Program-made: the position numbers and the translations under genes
From: a virus
DNA: 38,318 bases
IMG/VR virus record: IMGVR_UViG_3300037493_005911
Location: 1-38,318 of that record
Strand: one strand, 5' to 3'
Notes under the pieces: generated by a model
Told to the model about the DNA's origin: nothing
Databases searched by the model: none
What the model saw: only the letters and a program-made list of their open reading frames with translations
In this document: one piece after another, positions 26,869 to 36,211 of the stretch
Numbering within the stretch: position 1 is the stretch's first letter
Layout of the letters: each line of letters opens with the position of its first letter

Positions 26869-27328
26869 AAGAATAAACAAAGATCAATATTTCATGGGAA
26901 TGGCAAAAATTGCATCTCTCAGATCTACTTGTCTTAGAAGAGCTGTAGGATGTGTTCTTGTAAAGAGTGATAGAATCATTGCTACTGGATTCAATGGGAC
27001 TCCTATAGGGTTAGAGCATTGCGAAGTTAGAGGATGTCTTAGAGACATATTGAAAGTAAAATCAGGTGAAAGACATGAGATTTGCAGAGGATTACATGCT
27101 GAAGAGAACGCTATTATACAGTGTGCTCTTTACGGACCGTCTACTCAAGGCAGCATCTTGTATTGTACGACTCGACCTTGTTCAATATGTGCAAAGAATC
27201 TAATAAATGCTAAGATTTCAGAAATAGTCTATATAGATTATTATCCTGATGAGCTTGCAGAAGAAATCATAAAAGAAAGTAAAATAGCAATAAGGAGAAT
27301 GCAGTGGGAAAAACTTGTTCTAGAATGA
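26855..27328 (+). CDS. Deoxycytidylate (dCMP) deaminase
   Basis: 157 residues if begun at ATG 26855, overlapping the helicase stop by 14 bases; GTG 26831 in the same frame is possible but less likely. Zinc-site motifs are GLHAEENAIIQ (His and catalytic Glu) and CTTRPCSICAKNL (PCxxC), with CLRRAVGCVLV and ATGFNGTP typical of the dCMP deaminase/ComE branch. It converts dCMP to dUMP, the substrate for the thymidylate-synthase-like genes downstream. The extra-Cys region EHCEVRGCL is often found in phage forms. Confidence 0.9.
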   Translation: MPLSKRINKDQYFMGMAKIASLRSTCLRRAVGCVLVKSDRIIATGFNGTPIGLEHCEVRGCLRDILKVKSGERHEICRGLHAEENAIIQCALYGPSTQGSILYCTTRPCSICAKNLINAKISEIVYIDYYPDELAEEIIKESKIAIRRMQWEKLVLE

Positions 27329-28278
27329 TTTTGGGAGGTGGGATTTCTGGCTTGATTGCACTTCATTACATAAAGGACTCTGTTCTTTTTGAAGCAAGTA
27401 ATGACATAGCAAAAGATTTCTTAGATAATGTGTTTCCAAAGTTTATACACTACAATGCTAAAACTGAATCTTTATTCGAAGAGCTTGATCTTAAAGTAAA
27501 AATCAAGAAGTTCAGAGTAGGTATTTATGAGAACGGAATGATATATGACTTTTTTGATGATACGTTTAAGAAAGAGAAGAGGATAGAAGTTTACAATAAA
27601 TATTGCATGAAAAAGTACGGAAAAATTGTTGAAGATAAAATGAACGGGTACCTATCAGGGAACTTTGAGAGAGACTACATCGAAAATAAATTTGAACTAG
27701 TAGATGCTATTAAGAATAAATACTCCGACAGGATTGTGTTTAATCATCGAGTTGACAAGATAGATCTTGAGAGCAAAACTGTATATTTCAATAACGATTT
27801 ATTCTCAGATAGTTTTGACGTAAAGTATGATAAGCTGATCTCTACTCTTCCTGTTGACATATTCTCTAGGGTTTCAAGATCTAAATTTACATATAATTTT
27901 GTAGAACTTAAGATGGCTACAGTCTTTGTGGGTGAAAATAGCAAACTGAAGTATCTTGATTCTTGGGATTTTATTTATGTTACTGACGGCCAGTATCCTT
28001 TTCATAGGATTATCATCAATAAAGCTAATAACTGTCTTATCTTTGAATTTAGCGATATGATTAAAGACATTTCTGAATGTGTCAATTTTGCTAAATATTT
28101 CTATACTGAAGTCGGAGCGTATTCATTCAGAGATTTCAAATTTGCTGTCTTGAAAGACAACAAGACAGAAATATACATACCAGATGTCTATTTCATTGGC
28201 AGATTTTCAACAGGAAATTACGCAGTAAAGATACAGGAGGTGATTGATGGAGCAAAGAGTATTTCGAAATCAATCTAA
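27304..28278 (+). CDS. FAD/NAD(P)-binding oxidoreductase, amine-oxidase-like
   Basis: 324 residues from GTG 27304 after AAGGAG (27292-27297); it overlaps the previous gene by 25 bases. The N-terminus ILGGGISGLIALHYI is the dinucleotide-binding loop, followed by the acidic strand end VLFEAS. The C-terminal IPDVYFIGRFSTGNYAVKIQ matches the final FAD-contact segment of amine oxidase, protoporphyrinogen oxidase and UDP-galactopyranose mutase-like proteins. The middle contains KLISTLPVDIFSRV. The substrate is unknown; its position among nucleotide genes could imply base or nucleotide chemistry, or sugar chemistry. Confidence 0.7.
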   Translation: MGKTCSRMILGGGISGLIALHYIKDSVLFEASNDIAKDFLDNVFPKFIHYNAKTESLFEELDLKVKIKKFRVGIYENGMIYDFFDDTFKKEKRIEVYNKYCMKKYGKIVEDKMNGYLSGNFERDYIENKFELVDAIKNKYSDRIVFNHRVDKIDLESKTVYFNNDLFSDSFDVKYDKLISTLPVDIFSRVSRSKFTYNFVELKMATVFVGENSKLKYLDSWDFIYVTDGQYPFHRIIINKANNCLIFEFSDMIKDISECVNFAKYFYTEVGAYSFRDFKFAVLKDNKTEIYIPDVYFIGRFSTGNYAVKIQEVIDGAKSISKSI

Positions 28279-29896
28279 AAAGATTAATGATAAAGATCTT
28301 ATAGATTTGTATGTTAATAAGAGATTTTCTATCACTAAACTTTCGGATATTTCAGGTAATTGCGGAATAACAGTAAGAAGAAGATTGATTAGTCTAGGCG
28401 TCAAGATCAGAAAAGCACATGAGCAAAATATGGGCAATAAGCATAAGAATCATAAGAGATGGAAAAAGATGATAACTTTAGTTTGTAAGAATTGTAAAAG
28501 AGATTTTGAAAAGCCGAAAGCTATGACGGGCAAGAATTGTCCAGTATTCTGCTGTCACAAATGCTATATTGAGTATTTAAGATCTTTTGTTGTATTTAAA
28601 AAAGCAATGTGTAAGAGATGTGGTGTTGAGTTCGAGTATAAGATTACAAATAGAGGGAAATCAACACGGGCAATTAGAGATAGAATATACTGCTCTCATA
28701 ATTGTCAATCAAAAAATTCACACTGGGTCAAGCCTTGTTTTTATAAAGATAAGATGTATAGAAGTTCATGGGAAGTCGAATTCGTAAAGTTTTTAGAATC
28801 ATATCGTCTCGAGTTTGAATATGAGCCTAAAACATTTGAATTAGGGAATGGAATGACTTATCGACCTGACTTCTATATAAAAAATTATGATTGTTGGGTT
28901 GAAATTAAAGGAAAATATTCTAAAGACGCAGAAAATAAAATAAAAATTTTTAAAGAAAAAGTCAACAAAGAACTATACGTAATAAACGGAGGAACTCTTT
29001 TTCATTTCTTTTGGTGGATACAAGAAGTTTTCAATAGGCATTTTTTTAACAACGAATGTACAGATCTAGAAACAAAACAAAATCTTACTAAGGAGTATGT
29101 TGTTCATCTTATGGCAGAGGTTACTGAAATTTTAAATACAGTAAACTGGAAAATGCATCAAGATAAAAAATCAAATGATGTAATTAAATCACAAATGATG
29201 AGCGAGTTATCGGATGTTTTTAAATACACTGTGGGATTAGCTCAAATCTGGGGATATAGTTCTGATGATATATTGCAAGGATTGATAAGAAAGTCGAAAA
29301 TGGTTGAACTTAAATATTGCTATGGTAGAGAGCTCGGACGTCTAAAGGATAAAAAGGTTATAGCATGCGATATAGATGGAGTTCTTAATGATTATCCGAA
29401 CAATTTTATGAGATTTATAAATAAAAAAATCGGAAAGAGTTTCAATGATTATAGGATTGCAAAAAAACAACTAGAACCTAAGTTGCTTATCGATTTGAAG
29501 ACAGAGTTTAGAGAAACAGGTGAAGAAGCTTTGGGTGATGTCAATCAAGATTCTAGATTTTTCTTGAAACAGATGAAGAAGACTGGACGACACATTATTC
29601 TTCTTACTGCTAGACCTAAAGACATTCATCCTGACTTGTTTTATAGAACATGGGATTGGCTTTACGTCAATAATTTTTGTTATGATTCAATATATTTTAG
29701 TAAATATAAGCATCTTGAAATAATTAAAAAAGTTCCTAATTTAGAATTTATGATAGAAGATAATCTTGAATATGCTAATCAGATTAGTGCGAGAGGATTT
29801 AAAGTTTTCCTTATTAATAATATCTATAATCAAGGGCAAGTGAACGAAAACATAATCAGAGTGGATTCTCTAAAAGAAATTGTAGATAAGATCTAA
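28247..29896 (+). CDS. Fusion: HTH/zinc-finger PD-(D/E)XK endonuclease + MazG-like + HAD phosphatase
   Basis: 549 residues from ATG 28247 after CAGGAGG. Residues ~1-60 carry a helix-turn-helix (FSITKLSDISGNCGITVRRR); ~75-155 two zinc knuckles (CKNC, CCHKC; CKRC, YCSHNC); ~170-225 a nuclease core YRSSWEVEFVKFL...YRPDFYI...WVEIKG (E, D, ExK). From ~250 comes a MazG/dUTPase-like helix set (KEYVVHLMAEVTEIL; MMSELSDVFKYTVGLAQ), and ~375-549 a HAD domain (IACDIDGVLND, ILLTARP, MIEDNLEYA). The first half resembles homing-type endonucleases, the second a phage dUTP-clearing enzyme. The in-frame joining is odd. Confidence 0.75.
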   Translation: MEQRVFRNQSKKINDKDLIDLYVNKRFSITKLSDISGNCGITVRRRLISLGVKIRKAHEQNMGNKHKNHKRWKKMITLVCKNCKRDFEKPKAMTGKNCPVFCCHKCYIEYLRSFVVFKKAMCKRCGVEFEYKITNRGKSTRAIRDRIYCSHNCQSKNSHWVKPCFYKDKMYRSSWEVEFVKFLESYRLEFEYEPKTFELGNGMTYRPDFYIKNYDCWVEIKGKYSKDAENKIKIFKEKVNKELYVINGGTLFHFFWWIQEVFNRHFFNNECTDLETKQNLTKEYVVHLMAEVTEILNTVNWKMHQDKKSNDVIKSQMMSELSDVFKYTVGLAQIWGYSSDDILQGLIRKSKMVELKYCYGRELGRLKDKKVIACDIDGVLNDYPNNFMRFINKKIGKSFNDYRIAKKQLEPKLLIDLKTEFRETGEEALGDVNQDSRFFLKQMKKTGRHIILLTARPKDIHPDLFYRTWDWLYVNNFCYDSIYFSKYKHLEIIKKVPNLEFMIEDNLEYANQISARGFKVFLINNIYNQGQVNENIIRVDSLKEIVDKI

Positions 29897-30183
29897 TGGA
29901 AGGTGAATTTTCAGAATTAGTAAGACTAAACGAACACGATCTTCATTACGGAAGATGCAGGATTAAAGGATGTCAGAGATTTATACACAGTTTTCATCAC
30001 AGGTTAAAGAACACGGAGACGAACAGAAAGCTGTTTCCTCTCTTTATAGATAGCCCTATGAATTGTGCAGGTCTATGTGAACAACATCATGTTCGTCATG
30101 CAAGTGTAGAATCATTGGACATTACTGAAGAGGAGGCTAAAAACTATGAAGAATTTTTAGAAAGTCTCAAAAATAGTATTTAA
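29896..30183 (+). CDS. HNH-like nuclease, short
   Basis: 95 residues starting at the TAATG overlap. CRIKGCQRFIHSFHHRLKN supplies a Cys pair and the His of an HNH core, and NCAGLCEQHHVRHASV gives Asn, a Cys and a His pair at the expected distance. This matches small HNH endonucleases of phages, which may act as homing or packaging-related nucleases. No catalytic test is possible from sequence. It directly follows the nuclease-MazG fusion. Confidence 0.6.
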   Translation: MEGEFSELVRLNEHDLHYGRCRIKGCQRFIHSFHHRLKNTETNRKLFPLFIDSPMNCAGLCEQHHVRHASVESLDITEEEAKNYEEFLESLKNSI

Positions 30184-30508: not shown

Positions 30509-31054
30509 ATGAACATCTCGGTTGAAAGCATAAGGCAACACATAATCAGAGAAGGCGAGTCAACACGTAGGGATCGAGGTTACACAAGAGAGATTCTATC
30601 ATTTTCTACAACGCTTTATCCTGATGATTTTATAAAGTGCAATAAGATCGATTTGAACCTTTACTGGAAGATGATTCAGAGACAAGTTCCTATTTTCAGA
30701 AAAGAATTAGAAAACAATAAATTCTCTAGACGCTTGTTCTTTCAGTTCAATCGGTTTGAAAAAGATCCTGGGTTTAAAGATTTCTTTCTCTGTATTGAGA
30801 GCTTTGGAATATTTTTTGTCAGTTCAAATCAGTATGATTTGATTATCAACTTCAGAAGCTCTGACATCGATCGATTAGAGAACGACATCACAATCATCAA
30901 GATGATAGTTAAGAGATTGATTAAAGAATTCTTTGTGACATCTTATAAGAGAAATTTTAACGAAAGTTTAAGGCAAGCTGAAATGAGGAAGATAAAGATC
31001 CATTGTTTCAGCGCACACGTCTATGAAGAACGGATACAGAGTAGTCTTATTTGA
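30509..31054 (+). CDS. Divergent thymidylate-synthase-like (ThyA-fold) protein
   Basis: 181 residues, ATG after GTAAGGGA. The segment FRSSDIDRLENDITIIKMIV near residue 115 resembles the conserved RSxD motif of ThyA (RSCDVFLGLPFN). A Cys in FFLCIESFG lies 21 residues before the Arg; in ThyA the catalytic Cys of PCH lies 20 residues before. The Pro and His next to that Cys are not kept. The chain is shorter than the usual ~260 residues. It could be a dUMP hydroxymethylase-type relative, an inactive copy, or a chance likeness. It overlaps the kinase gene by 32 bases. Confidence 0.45.
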   Translation: MNISVESIRQHIIREGESTRRDRGYTREILSFSTTLYPDDFIKCNKIDLNLYWKMIQRQVPIFRKELENNKFSRRLFFQFNRFEKDPGFKDFFLCIESFGIFFVSSNQYDLIINFRSSDIDRLENDITIIKMIVKRLIKEFFVTSYKRNFNESLRQAEMRKIKIHCFSAHVYEERIQSSLI

Positions 31055-31484
31055 AGGCGGAGATGCTGCAGGAAAAACAACTCTGAAAAGAGCTTTTGAT
31101 AAGAAAGTGAATTATTATCATCAGTGTTGTGATCGTTTTCTTGTATCATCTCTTGTCTACAATAAAGTTTATGAAAGGCATCAAGAGATTGAGGATGCAA
31201 TTTGGGACGATTTGTTCAATTTCATAGAGACTTTTGATGCTCTTATCGTCTTTGTTTTGACCGATCCTGAGATAGCTTGGCAAAGGGTTGTCATCAGAGG
31301 AGACGAGATGACAAAATCAAAAGAAGAAGCTATTGCTCTTTATAAGGGATATAACAGTCTTTATGAAAAGCTTAGGACAATAGGATATTCAAAGTATGTT
31401 ATGGAAGTGAACGGCAACGATCCTGTTGAGCAATCAATTGAAAAAATATTAAACAGATTGGGTGATCAAGATCGGCTTCGCTAA
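31023..31484 (+). CDS. P-loop nucleoside-monophosphate kinase (thymidylate-kinase-like)
   Basis: 153 residues, ATG 31023 inside the previous gene. Walker A is EGGDAAGKTTLK (about residues 10-21); CCDRFLVSS resembles the DR(Y/F) dNMP-binding motif of thymidylate kinase, and LIVFVLTDPEIAWQR the core strand before the lid. It is shorter than bacterial Tmk (~210 residues). It should phosphorylate a pyrimidine deoxynucleotide; a role on a modified dNMP is conceivable from the neighbour. It overlaps the polymerase gene by 23 bases. Confidence 0.7.
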   Translation: MKNGYRVVLFEGGDAAGKTTLKRAFDKKVNYYHQCCDRFLVSSLVYNKVYERHQEIEDAIWDDLFNFIETFDALIVFVLTDPEIAWQRVVIRGDEMTKSKEEAIALYKGYNSLYEKLRTIGYSKYVMEVNGNDPVEQSIEKILNRLGDQDRLR

Positions 31485-34400
31485 GAGTTTAGATATTTTA
31501 AAGAACAAAGCTATCACTCTAGATTCTCTTAAAGATCTTTATGAGAACTGTTCTTGTGAAGATATGACAAAATACTGGGGAGCATTTATCAATATCAAAA
31601 GCTCTCCCTATATGATCGTCGGTCAGAACCCTACTTTCTTCAACGATGATAAAAATTCCACAGATAAGAAGTTTCAAAAGTTTTATTTCCAAGATTCAAA
31701 TAATCTAGAAGTTCTTAAAAAAGCTTTTAGCACCGTAGGAATAAATGTAGAAGATTGTTACATTACAAATCTTTGTAAATGTGCAACAAAAGACAATTGC
31801 CCATTGATGCTTAAGAATGCTGTAGAATGCTTTGAAGCTTTTATGATACATGAGATCAAATTAACAAAACCGAGGGTCATATTCCTTTTAGGGAAGCCTA
31901 CTCTAGAGTTGTTTAAGAACATTGTAGACTCTTCTGATATGCTTAAAGAAAGAATTTTCCCTATGACGTCTGGGTTTGAGCTTGATTCTAATAAGATCTT
32001 TTATACAGCACTTCCTCATCCTGCAGCAAGGTTCGAAGGCAAGTTAGAGAAGATGATAGCAATTTTGAAAAAGTATGAGAATATTTTCAAATTGATAGAT
32101 CGTGATAGAGAATTCAATCATTTGCACATTCATAATCACTTCTCTCTTCATGATAGTTTGATTAGAATCGAAGACTTAGTACGGGAACTGCACAGAACTC
32201 ACAAAAAACAAATAGTAACCACGAATCACGGTTCATTAAGTGATAATTATCAAATCATTAAGAACGCTGAAGAGAACGGGCTAAAATACATTCTCGGTTG
32301 TGAGCTCTATTGCTTTGAAAATGTAGAAGAATTCAAAAAGATAGAAGATGCTACAGAAAGAGGAGAGTATAGCAAGACTAAAAGACGCCACATCGTATTG
32401 ATTGCTAAGAACAAGAAGGGTTACGAGAATCTTATAAAGAATCATAATTGGGGATGGTTGAACGGATTCTATTATCGTCCTGTAGTAGATCTTCAGTATA
32501 TTCTTGACAATAGTGAGGGATTGATTGCATTGTCTGCTTGCACAGTAGGCTTGATAAGTTATTATCTTGTAAATAATGACTTCATGAAAGCTTACGATAT
32601 GGCAAAAAAATTAAAGTCTGTATTTAAAGACGATTTCTACATAGAGATCCCTTTAATCGAATTTGAAGAGCAAGTTAGGATTGCTGATGATCTTATCTCT
32701 ATAGCAAAAGAACTTCAAATTAAGATCGTTGTAACCAATGACGTTCACTATATCAAACACGAAGACTCAAAGTTTAGAGACTTTGCTTATGATATATTTC
32801 ACAATAAGACAGAAAGTGACTCAAAGTCGGATAAGAAGTGTGATGATCTTTATTTTAAATCATATCTTCAAATGAAAGCTGACTGGGAACTTAGATATAA
32901 ATCAAAGAATTTCACAGAAGAAGTCTTTGAAGAAGCTATAGACAATGCAATTGCAATATTGAATTCAATTGAAGTTGTAAAACTTACAACATCTCACAAT
33001 ATCAAGATGTTTGATGATTCAAATGAGAGGTTCGTAAGTATGCTCAATAAAGCTTTTGTTGAAAGATTCAAAGATTTCAATGATGATAAGAAAAAGCTAT
33101 ATAGAGAAAGATTAGACAAAGAGATAGAAATTATTTTAAAGAAAGATTTAGTAGATTATTTTTTGATTATGGCTGACATTGTTAATTATGCAAGAACTAA
33201 GTATGGCAGGTACGTGGTAGGACCGGGAAGAGGTTCAGCTTCAGGATCGTTGGTTAATTATTTGCTTGATGTCACTCTTGCTGATCCCATACGATTCGAT
33301 CTTTTGTTTGAAAGATTTGTAGGTATTGAAAGATCAGATCTCCCTGATATAGACGTTGACTTTATGCCTTCAATAAGAGATGATGTTTTTGTCTATATTA
33401 AAAATAAGTATGGAGAGAACAAATGTATTCAAATAGGAACACATGCTTATCTTAAAACAAAGAACGCTATACAAGATGTGTCAAGATATTTCAATGTACC
33501 TGCTAGAGAGGTCTACGAGTTAACTACAAATTTAGAAGAAATAGAAGAACAAAAGACTACAAAAGAGATCAAGAGTGAAAATCCTTTGCTTGAAGCTTAT
33601 TTCAAAAAGTATCCTAAGATAGAGCAGTATGTTGACAAGATGCGTAATACCATACGACAATTTTCTTCTCACGCAGCAGGCATCATCGTATCGAACGAAA
33701 ATGTCTATGAAACTATGCCCATCAACAGAACTTCAAGAATGATTGTCACTGGCTGGCAAGACGGATCTGATTTTAGAGAACTAACAGATATGGGTTATTA
33801 CAAATATGATATTTTAGGTCTTAATAATCTTGAAATTGTCAATGACGCAGTTAAGCTGATAGGAAAAGACATAAATTTTGAAGAGTTAGATCTAGAAGAT
33901 CCTAAAGTTTATAAGTTTATGAGTGAAGATGACTATATGGGAATATTTCAATTTGAAAGTGCTTTGGCAAGAAAGTCAATAAAATCAATAGGACCTACAT
34001 GCTTTGAAGATTATGTTGCTATCAATTCACTGCTGAGACCGGGTCCTTTGAAAGCAGGGATGGTAGATGAGTATGCAAAGAGAAAGAAAGGGATTGTTAC
34101 TGTTGATGTTCCCAGTTGTATAGAACCCATATTGAGAAGGACTTACGGTATTATTGTTGAGCAAGAACAAATCATGAAGATCTGTAATGTCATCGGAGGA
34201 CTTGATCTTAATGAGGCAAACAATTTCAGAAAAGCATTAGTGAAGTATAGCAGATCTCTTGCAAATGAGATGAAGAGAATTGCTAAAGTTCAAAGTTATG
34301 AAAAGAGGTTTATAGAGAGTGCTAAAAATTTTGTTACAGAGAAAGAAGCAGAAGACATTTTTAAGCTAATTGGAAAATTTGTTGCCTATGGTTTTAACAG

Positions 34401-35208
34401 ATCTCATTCTCTTGCATATGCTCTTGTAGCTTATTGGGAGATGTATATTAAGACATATTATCCTAAAGAGCTGTATTTAGCTTTGCTCAATAACACATCG
34501 ACATCAATCAAGGATAATAGCTTTGAATTTAAACTAAAAAGATATTTGATCTCTGCAGTTAATCATGGGTTCAATTTACTTCCTCCTGATGTAAACAAAA
34601 GTGATATGAATTTCAAGTCAGAGGGAGATGACATCAGGTACGGACTTGTATTTTTGAAAAGTATTTCACCAGGCGATTGTTCAGAGATCATAAAAAAGAG
34701 ACCTTTTGTTTCACTAGAAGATTTCTATAGCAAGGTAGAGAAAAAGAAGTTAAACAAGAGCAAGGTAGAATCATTGATCTTTTCAGGTGCATTTGACAGT
34801 TTCGGCAAGAGAGAGGATGTTCTTAAGAAATTTTATGAAATTAGAAAAGACAAAGATAAAGTTGATCTTACAGCTATTGATTATAAAGTAGAGGAGAAAG
34901 AGAGACTTTACATAAGTTTGTCAGGCATGATAGAGTTTTTTGAGAGATGTAAGCTTGTAAATGAAAAGCATAAGCTAGAAGGTAAAAGAGACTATTTCAT
35001 TATAGATGCAATAATGAAAAAGAAGGGATATGCAATAGCATCAGTCTATAGCAGAAACAGATTTTTTGACAGAATGTTTTTTAGTGGAAAAAAAGAAGAA
35101 TTGGATCGTCTTGATGTAGGAGTTAGATTCGCAGGAGTATTCATAGAAGATTCAAAGGGAGTATCATGCAGGACTTATAAGGTAGACAAAAACAAAACGG
35201 AGGTGTAA
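31462..35208 (+). CDS. Uracil-DNA-glycosylase-like domain fused to DNA polymerase III alpha (DnaE type, PHP domain)
   Basis: 1248 residues from GTG 31462 (no clear ribosome site; the start is probably coupled). Residues 30-200 resemble family-4 UDGs: C30/C32, MIVGQNPTFF, CYITNLCKCATKDN, VECFEAF with C123, PRVIFLLGKPTLELF and LPHPAARF. Four of these Cys could bind 4Fe-4S. The PHP domain starts NHLHIHNHFSLHD (about 219-231) and keeps VVTNDVHYI. The polymerase core has GPGRGSASGSLVNYLL (about 587) and LPDIDVDF (about 627), whose Asp pair binds metal, and FSSHAAGIIVS. It copies the phage genome. Confidence 0.9.
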   Translation: MIKIGFAKSLDILKNKAITLDSLKDLYENCSCEDMTKYWGAFINIKSSPYMIVGQNPTFFNDDKNSTDKKFQKFYFQDSNNLEVLKKAFSTVGINVEDCYITNLCKCATKDNCPLMLKNAVECFEAFMIHEIKLTKPRVIFLLGKPTLELFKNIVDSSDMLKERIFPMTSGFELDSNKIFYTALPHPAARFEGKLEKMIAILKKYENIFKLIDRDREFNHLHIHNHFSLHDSLIRIEDLVRELHRTHKKQIVTTNHGSLSDNYQIIKNAEENGLKYILGCELYCFENVEEFKKIEDATERGEYSKTKRRHIVLIAKNKKGYENLIKNHNWGWLNGFYYRPVVDLQYILDNSEGLIALSACTVGLISYYLVNNDFMKAYDMAKKLKSVFKDDFYIEIPLIEFEEQVRIADDLISIAKELQIKIVVTNDVHYIKHEDSKFRDFAYDIFHNKTESDSKSDKKCDDLYFKSYLQMKADWELRYKSKNFTEEVFEEAIDNAIAILNSIEVVKLTTSHNIKMFDDSNERFVSMLNKAFVERFKDFNDDKKKLYRERLDKEIEIILKKDLVDYFLIMADIVNYARTKYGRYVVGPGRGSASGSLVNYLLDVTLADPIRFDLLFERFVGIERSDLPDIDVDFMPSIRDDVFVYIKNKYGENKCIQIGTHAYLKTKNAIQDVSRYFNVPAREVYELTTNLEEIEEQKTTKEIKSENPLLEAYFKKYPKIEQYVDKMRNTIRQFSSHAAGIIVSNENVYETMPINRTSRMIVTGWQDGSDFRELTDMGYYKYDILGLNNLEIVNDAVKLIGKDINFEELDLEDPKVYKFMSEDDYMGIFQFESALARKSIKSIGPTCFEDYVAINSLLRPGPLKAGMVDEYAKRKKGIVTVDVPSCIEPILRRTYGIIVEQEQIMKICNVIGGLDLNEANNFRKALVKYSRSLANEMKRIAKVQSYEKRFIESAKNFVTEKEAEDIFKLIGKFVAYGFNRSHSLAYALVAYWEMYIKTYYPKELYLALLNNTSTSIKDNSFEFKLKRYLISAVNHGFNLLPPDVNKSDMNFKSEGDDIRYGLVFLKSISPGDCSEIIKKRPFVSLEDFYSKVEKKKLNKSKVESLIFSGAFDSFGKREDVLKKFYEIRKDKDKVDLTAIDYKVEEKERLYISLSGMIEFFERCKLVNEKHKLEGKRDYFIIDAIMKKKGYAIASVYSRNRFFDRMFFSGKKEELDRLDVGVRFAGVFIEDSKGVSCRTYKVDKNKTEV

Positions 35209-35209
35209 G

Positions 35210-36211
35210 ATGACAGAAGAGAGGACGGAAATAGAGAACTTCAGGAAGGCAATGGGAACACTACCTTCTCAAAGCCCGAAAAAGAACTACGACTATAAGA
35301 ATTGCTTAGAGACGATTTATGTAAAGCTTACAGATTGTCCGAGTAATCCCTATAAGACATTAGTTCGGATGTCTACTGCAACTTGGGGTGATGGACAGGT
35401 TACAGAAGGACACGGATCAACACAGAAGTGGGAACAATTATCACCTATGAATAGATATATCGTTGCCTTATCTGTTCTTACAGGGAACACGTTGCCAACA
35501 GCGTTGGAATCAGTAAGTTTTACGTTTGAGTTCAATGGAGTTCCCAGACATGCATTTGATCAATTTGTCAGAATGAGAATCGGAGCAGGACATGCTTCAA
35601 TCGGCTCGAGGGACAACAATAAGCTTGACAGTCCTTTTGTGCTATATCCTTCTTTGTATAAAGAGATTGAGAATGATATGTTCTTAAAAGCTCAATTTGA
35701 AGAATGGATTGTAAAGACAAAAGATCTTTATGAGAAGATCTTGGGAACTACTGAGGGATCTTGGCAAACTGCAAGAGCTGTTCTTCCTATGAGCTACAGT
35801 CATTCTTGGGTTTCATATGTCAACTTGATGTGTCTCAGAGGTCAGATGTCAAGACGCTTGATGGCATGTGAAGAAGCTCCAATGGTTTTGATATTCTGGA
35901 AGATGAGAAAAGAGATCGAAGATAGATTTCCGTTAATAGCAAATTATCTTCGGCCTGTATGTGACAATGCAAAGAAGTGTGTGTATCATGAAGGTCCCGA
36001 GGGACTTACTAAGTACTTCAGCGCATTGTTTGCAGGATGCGGAAGATGGTTAACAAAAGAAAAATATTCAGAATTCAATAATAGCTGCTCTGATTATTCT
36101 GAGATTGGCAAGTATGTTAAGATCGTGGGTCCTAATGATTGGATTCACTATACTCCTGATTCGTATAACAACTTGTCTGCAGCAGACAAGATATTGTTCG
36201 AGGAAGAATGA
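35210..36211 (+). CDS. FAD-dependent thymidylate synthase (ThyX), divergent
   Basis: 333 residues from ATG 35210 after CGGAGGTG. The central block FTFEFNGVPRHAFDQFVRMR with IGAGHASIGSR (about residues 103-135) corresponds to the ThyX signature region, and WQTARAVLPMSYSHSW with CLRGQMSRRL to its C-terminal half. The canonical RHRx7S is RMR with altered spacing, so the dUMP/FAD-binding motif is degenerate. It would methylate dUMP to dTMP using folate and FAD. It ends with an ATGA overlap. Confidence 0.75.
   Translation: MTEERTEIENFRKAMGTLPSQSPKKNYDYKNCLETIYVKLTDCPSNPYKTLVRMSTATWGDGQVTEGHGSTQKWEQLSPMNRYIVALSVLTGNTLPTALESVSFTFEFNGVPRHAFDQFVRMRIGAGHASIGSRDNNKLDSPFVLYPSLYKEIENDMFLKAQFEEWIVKTKDLYEKILGTTEGSWQTARAVLPMSYSHSWVSYVNLMCLRGQMSRRLMACEEAPMVLIFWKMRKEIEDRFPLIANYLRPVCDNAKKCVYHEGPEGLTKYFSALFAGCGRWLTKEKYSEFNNSCSDYSEIGKYVKIVGPNDWIHYTPDSYNNLSAADKILFEEE

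Follow-up and report, generated by a model that had tools for sequence, protein, structure and literature searches.

A homing-type PD-(D/E)XK nuclease fused in frame to the front of a dUTPase/MazG-HAD enzyme in an uncultured phage, with a probable origin by insertion at a gene boundary

How did a DNA-binding nuclease come to stand at the front of a nucleotide enzyme, within one open reading frame of a phage? The sequence analysed is an IMG/VR virus record of an uncultured phage, and the window is this whole stretch of 38,318 bases. A preliminary description, made from the letters alone, had read the locus as a single in-frame chain of nuclease, MazG-like and HAD parts, which looked as if a nucleotide-metabolism gene had captured a mobile endonuclease. 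The single frame was confirmed: it is open, and profiles matched both halves. The capture is well supported by relatives without the nuclease and by the location of the join. From the sequence, we consider it probable that a homing-type gene was inserted at the boundary between an oxidoreductase gene and a MazG-HAD gene, and was then fused to the enzyme once its stop codon and the start codon of the enzyme had disappeared. The basis for this reading is both halves, the join between them, the intact catalytic residues, and the relatives of each half that lack the other. The features are listed in Table 1.

Table 1. Features of the fused gene and of its two neighbours, with the evidence for each
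Feature	Position	Strand	Evidence or remark
FAD-type oxidoreductase gene	27304..28278	+	weak Pfam/PHROG matches; alignment with oxidoreductases preceding MazG-HAD or HAD genes
Shine-Dalgarno AGGAGGTGAT and ATG of the fused ORF	28235..28249	+	strong; within the oxidoreductase tail (sequence read directly)
Fused ORF	28247..29896	+	549 aa, ATG start; order HTH, two zinc knuckles, PD-(D/E)XK nuclease, dUTPase/MazG, HAD
Helix-turn-helix (HTH) region, aa 14-50	28286..28396	+	three helices in model; weak phrog_8446 match
Two zinc knuckles, C80/C83-C103/C106 and C122/C125-C149/C153	28484..28705	+	alignment with L119, L120, L148
PD-(D/E)XK nuclease core, aa 166-247	28742..28987	+	T7 endonuclease I match, family alignment
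Fusion junction, aa 245-254	28979..29008	+	profiles built without the 38,318-base sequence; structure models
All-alpha dUTPase/MazG-type domain, ExxE (291-294), ExxD (320-323)	29009..29320	+	
HAD phosphatase, deoxyribonucleotidase-like (predicted)	29342..29893	+	DIDGVLND, LLTARP, K488, IEDN motifs; fold match 3bwv
Short HNH-like ORF	29896..30183	+	begins inside the stop codon of the fused ORF (TAATG); assignment weak

The frame of the fused ORF is uninterrupted from end to end. It overlaps the oxidoreductase ORF by 32 bp, and a TTG lies one codon 5′ of its ATG. Pfam and PHROG searches placed the nuclease at residues ~165-243, the dUTPase_2/MazG domain at 273-351 (weak), and the HAD domain at 366-549. 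In the sequence, the catalytic residues of all three domains, nuclease, dUTPase/MazG and HAD, are kept. The GC content is ~0.30 in both halves versus an ORF mean of 0.36 (SD 0.025), and the codon usage of both halves agrees with the rest of the phage. A recent acquisition judged from composition was considered and dropped, the GC content being low but the codon usage typical of the phage. The halves are not separable by codon usage or GC content.

An assembly or sequencing artefact, such as a missed stop codon or a frameshift between genes that are in truth separate, would also produce an apparent fusion, as would a dying element that makes a non-functional passenger chain. The contig comes from an uncultured virus and has neither reads nor close relatives, which is compatible with such an error. 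However, both homologous blocks share one frame and meet within ~10 residues, the active-site residues are all intact and the composition is uniform over the join, and we regard this explanation as improbable.

The description of the N-terminal half as a DNA-binding, zinc-knuckle PD-(D/E)XK nuclease was borne out by the knuckle cysteines and by matches to Phage_endo_I, phrog_9019 and T7 endonuclease I structures. The Pfam family Phage_endo_I matched the fused protein with E=0.0016 and the nuclease half alone with 4.8e-4, and the PHROG match of the nuclease is phrog_9019 (E=4.4e-16). The nuclease family profile matched T7 endonuclease I structures (E=4.6e-11). Residues E176, D208, E219 and K221 vary little or not at all in the family and align with T7 endonuclease I, giving the E...D...ExK active site of PD-(D/E)XK nucleases of this type, with a weak fold match. 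An FCS-type zinc finger match covers the zinc knuckles (E=0.0015), and phrog_8446 (HNH-endonuclease) weakly matches residues 14-69; the HTH region is comparable to a segment of the relative L127. The model of the nuclease half has low confidence overall (pLDDT 74, pTM 0.41) with a confident core, and weakly resembles the folds of Bax1, I-Bth0305I and T7 endonuclease I. Assignment to the EDxHD homing endonucleases (I-Bth0305I) was rejected, as the alignment gives E...D...ExK and not ExDxHxD, and the fold match is weak.

The long relatives of the nuclease are free-standing phage nucleases with zinc knuckles, HTH or NUMOD3, and they stop 12-57 aa past the PD-(D/E)XK core, except for a member carried by an intein. 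This intein lies within an HK97-gp10-like gene (L143:2840-4582) and carries a zinc-knuckle/NUMOD3/PD-(D/E)XK nuclease, with profile matches to the intein splicing domain (2.4e-17) and NUMOD3 (1.6e-6). Another relative (L120) has a GIY-YIG homing endonuclease ~1 kb away, and a further one sits between structural-looking genes and has a TAATG junction with the next gene (L121). A UDG domain (4e-19) fused to an XkdF-type phage serine protease adjoins the relative in L119 (L119:2222-3676). The nuclease thus combines a catalytic core with DNA-binding modules, and its relatives occupy scattered loci including an intein. Because one relative sits in an intein, the family is taken as homing-type, and on sequence grounds the nuclease half is a homing-type nuclease. 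The fused protein is not itself an intein, since Pfam gave no Hint domain match in it, unlike in L143. A group I intron was likewise rejected, with no Rfam match at E<=1 and ~710 bp of added DNA filled by the ORF.

The same half could instead be the phage's own Holliday-junction resolvase of the T7 endonuclease I type, fused to the nucleotide enzyme and serving DNA repair or packaging but not homing. The best PHROG match is annotated as a Holliday junction resolvase, the core aligns with T7 endonuclease I, and no other resolvase was recognised within the 38,318-base record. However, the HTH and the zinc knuckles are missing from the short resolvase-type rows of the alignment, and the relatives are dispersed over several gene boundaries, with one of them inside an intein. 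In the tree of nuclease cores, built on few columns and with several weak forks, the fused protein is nearest to L120, L121, L143 and L136, which are long rows resembling homing endonuclease genes (HEGs), and is not part of the clade, itself supported, that unites 45 short resolvase-type rows. With this position and its long N-terminal extension, the nuclease does not agree with a short-form resolvase, and we consider a resolvase origin very unlikely.

The C-terminal half possesses the conserved metal-binding residues of MazG and dimeric dUTPases (E291/E294, E320/D323). The MazG/dUTPase_2 match is sub-threshold in the fused protein; stand-alone relatives exceed the PF08761 cut-off. The HAD domain matches phrog_420 (E=8e-14) and presents the motifs (DxD, T/S, K, D) and the fold of HAD 5′(3′)-deoxyribonucleotidases (NT5C-like). 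In the model of the enzyme (pLDDT 85), the deoxyribonucleotidase-like structure 3bwv is the best covered among the matches listed, with a TMt (target-normalised TM-score) of 0.78. The NT5C Pfam match of the relative L018 is sub-threshold, close to the cut-off. The HAD domain is accordingly predicted to be deoxyribonucleotidase-like. The MazG-HAD family profile matches dUTPase, dCTP pyrophosphatase, MazG and deoxyribonucleotidase structures, each weakly (E 0.003-0.09).

Relatives of the enzyme half were found by a viral-contig search with an alignment of distant actinobacteriophage HAD relatives, which have an oxidoreductase upstream and DnaE downstream. The search yielded nuclease-free, stand-alone MazG-HAD proteins of ~300-330 aa (L016/L017, L018/L023, L019, L021/L022, L024, L025 and L084). 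A further MazG-HAD relative (L116) comes from a contig that was assigned to a Thermococcus MAG but may be viral. The short gene between the oxidoreductase and HAD genes of Aikoy and Nocardia P3.1 was considered as a separate MazG and rejected. By comparison of these proteins, the pairing of MazG with HAD is an old family and was formerly a separate gene. The possibility that the fusion is an old, fixed family therefore applies to MazG plus HAD and not to nuclease plus enzyme, as no other locus with both halves was present among ~200 fetched loci. A single genome carries the fusion.

Where the halves meet was determined by comparison with nuclease-free relatives, as had been proposed. Both profiles were built with the fused protein excluded; that of the nuclease matches as far as residue 244, and that of MazG-HAD begins at residue 255 with profile position 7 and covers residues 255-549 (244 bits). 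Only ~6 N-terminal profile positions of the native enzyme are missing at the join, and no linker is present; in the models, the last nuclease strand (243-247) leads directly into the first MazG helix. The earlier view that the nuclease replaces the natural N-terminus of the enzyme does not hold, as nearly the whole native enzyme is kept.

On the other side, the C-terminus of the oxidoreductase is full length, which puts the added DNA between 28279 and ~28985, roughly 710 bp. In all seven distinct cases compared (7/7), the stand-alone MazG-HAD gene overlaps or abuts an oxidoreductase gene of the same type, and such an oxidoreductase is upstream in 104 of the 110 HAD loci (redundant set). The insertion is thus at a boundary that is uninterrupted in relatives, all of them distant, as would be expected for homing. 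Searches with the DNA of the window, and in viral contigs with the whole protein or with DnaE, gave no close relatives. As none with an empty boundary was thus found, we infer the insertion from proteins that are 23-37% identical. In another phage, an unfused HNH+HTH gene is present between the oxidoreductase and HAD genes (L094:5630-6001), at a boundary equivalent to that of the fusion, which seems therefore to have been visited independently.

The fusion also affects how the enzyme can be started. Past M203, the first usual in-frame start is ATG 29111, within the MazG helices, so the intact enzyme alone has no usual start. M203 is preceded by a weak AGGGA, and a start there could yield a shortened product.

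Under the favoured reading, a free-standing homing-type endonuclease gene encoding the HTH, the zinc knuckles and the PD-(D/E)XK domain would have entered the boundary between the oxidoreductase and dUTPase-MazG-HAD genes. The stop codon of the nuclease and the enzyme's own start codon would subsequently have been lost, and both halves would be made as a single 549-residue chain from the strong ribosome-binding site within the oxidoreductase tail. The nuclease half may cut the uninterrupted boundary in related phages, where repair would copy the gene across. The enzyme half may still degrade dNTPs (dUTP or related) to dNMPs and then to nucleosides. The fusion would shield the nuclease gene, as breaking its frame would also remove the enzyme.

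Genes related to nucleotide metabolism are present nearby, including dCMP deaminase, thymidylate-kinase-like and ThyX genes and a UDG-DnaE fusion. In the last, a uracil-DNA-glycosylase domain (PF03167, 2e-16) is fused N-terminal to a DnaE-type polymerase (31462-35208), and a ThyX-type thymidylate synthase (3.5e-14) is encoded downstream of it (35210-36211). The ORF at 30509-31054 resembles thymidylate synthase only very weakly. An HNH gene had been described as following the fusion at once. The short ORF in this place does overlap the fused ORF at TAATG, and its C/H/N residue spacing is HNH-like; its assignment is weak, the best of the weak PHROG matches being phrog_8048 (E=0.0025), with no Pfam match and no relatives in phage or viral collections. 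In Mycobacterium phage Aikoy, an HNH_3 gene separates the HAD gene from a DnaE that appears to be split (L005:4262-5663). Further upstream in the window, a long array of sugar/surface-modification type genes (radical SAM/SPASM plus methyltransferase, epimerases, glycosyltransferase) extends over 1962-24077, including a GroES-like gene (19677) and a transposase-like gene (21799).

The preliminary description had left two readings, a selfish invasion that stays in frame and a new enzyme; the first is the better supported, and the second the less likely. In one form of the second, the nuclease would be domesticated, kept since its linking of DNA binding or cleavage with the clearing of dNTPs aids the phage, for example by cutting DNA of the host or of rival phages as the nucleotide pool is cleaned, with a cleavage that is no longer homing. 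Three intact active sites, a composition uniform over both halves and a strong ribosome-binding site, whereas HEGs are typically weakly expressed, are consistent with this, and phage ICP1 provides a case of HEG-derived domains put to a new use (PMC8263062). However, only one genome has the fusion, giving no sign of conservation by selection, and the unfused HNH gene at the equivalent boundary in another phage fits passive insertion. Domestication is therefore judged unlikely. Somewhat less likely still is a selected fusion in which a DNA-targeted nuclease is physically coupled to dNTP clearing, for example so that the genomes of rival phages are cut at a locus held in common and unwanted nucleotides are destroyed meanwhile.

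If insertion and fusion occurred as proposed, an endonuclease insertion at a gene boundary has here advanced by a further step, and a conserved nucleotide enzyme now depends on a mobile gene for its sole usual start codon. Loss of the nuclease would thereby be costly, which offers a simple path from selfish gene to domain of a host protein. Two further things are indicated: PD-(D/E)XK homing-type nucleases form a family, one member of which is borne by an intein, and oxidoreductase, dUTPase-HAD and DnaE genes make up a phage locus that is conserved.

It is well established that homing endonucleases occur at gene boundaries, and fusions of HEGs in frame have also been published. No published nuclease-MazG-HAD fusion was found in the literature searched, which mostly excluded subscription papers. 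A PD-(D/E)XK homing-type nuclease fronting a nearly complete, apparently intact nucleotide enzyme had no counterpart in this literature; insertions of a similar kind have been described, but such a placement is unusual.

Similar to the free-standing seg/mob HEGs of T4 (PMC2988022), the nuclease combines DNA-binding modules with a catalytic domain and is encoded without a promoter between two genes, with a start that overlaps the upstream ORF; the overlap of 32 bp resembles the 20-24 bp reported for T4 HEGs. The T4 enzymes, however, are GIY-YIG or HNH nucleases made as separate proteins, whereas here a PD-(D/E)XK nuclease is fused to the downstream enzyme. T7 endonuclease I shares the core fold and the E...D...ExK pattern, but is a stand-alone resolvase without HTH or zinc knuckles. 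PD-(D/E)XK catalytic residues are also shared with I-Ssp6803I, compared by fold class only, and with the L143 nuclease, which is of the same zinc-knuckle/nuclease type by profile match; these are intron- or intein-borne and not fused to a working enzyme. The phage dUTPase/MazG-HAD proteins (L016-L025, L084) have the same two domains and the same gene order behind an oxidoreductase, but are nuclease-free and possess their own start codon. Odn of ICP1 is a chimeric HEG-derived nuclease (PMC8263062), and like the present protein it contains a recombined HEG domain in a phage, as an example of domestication; there, the partner of the nuclease domain is a DNA-binding domain and not a nucleotide enzyme. 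Gene 31 of Salmonella phage epsilon-34, an in-frame fusion of the eaE N-terminus with an HNH HEG (PMC2629481), likewise has a HEG in frame with a phage gene. There, the HEG stands behind a remnant of the host gene, its N-terminus only, whereas here the HEG precedes a nearly complete enzyme.
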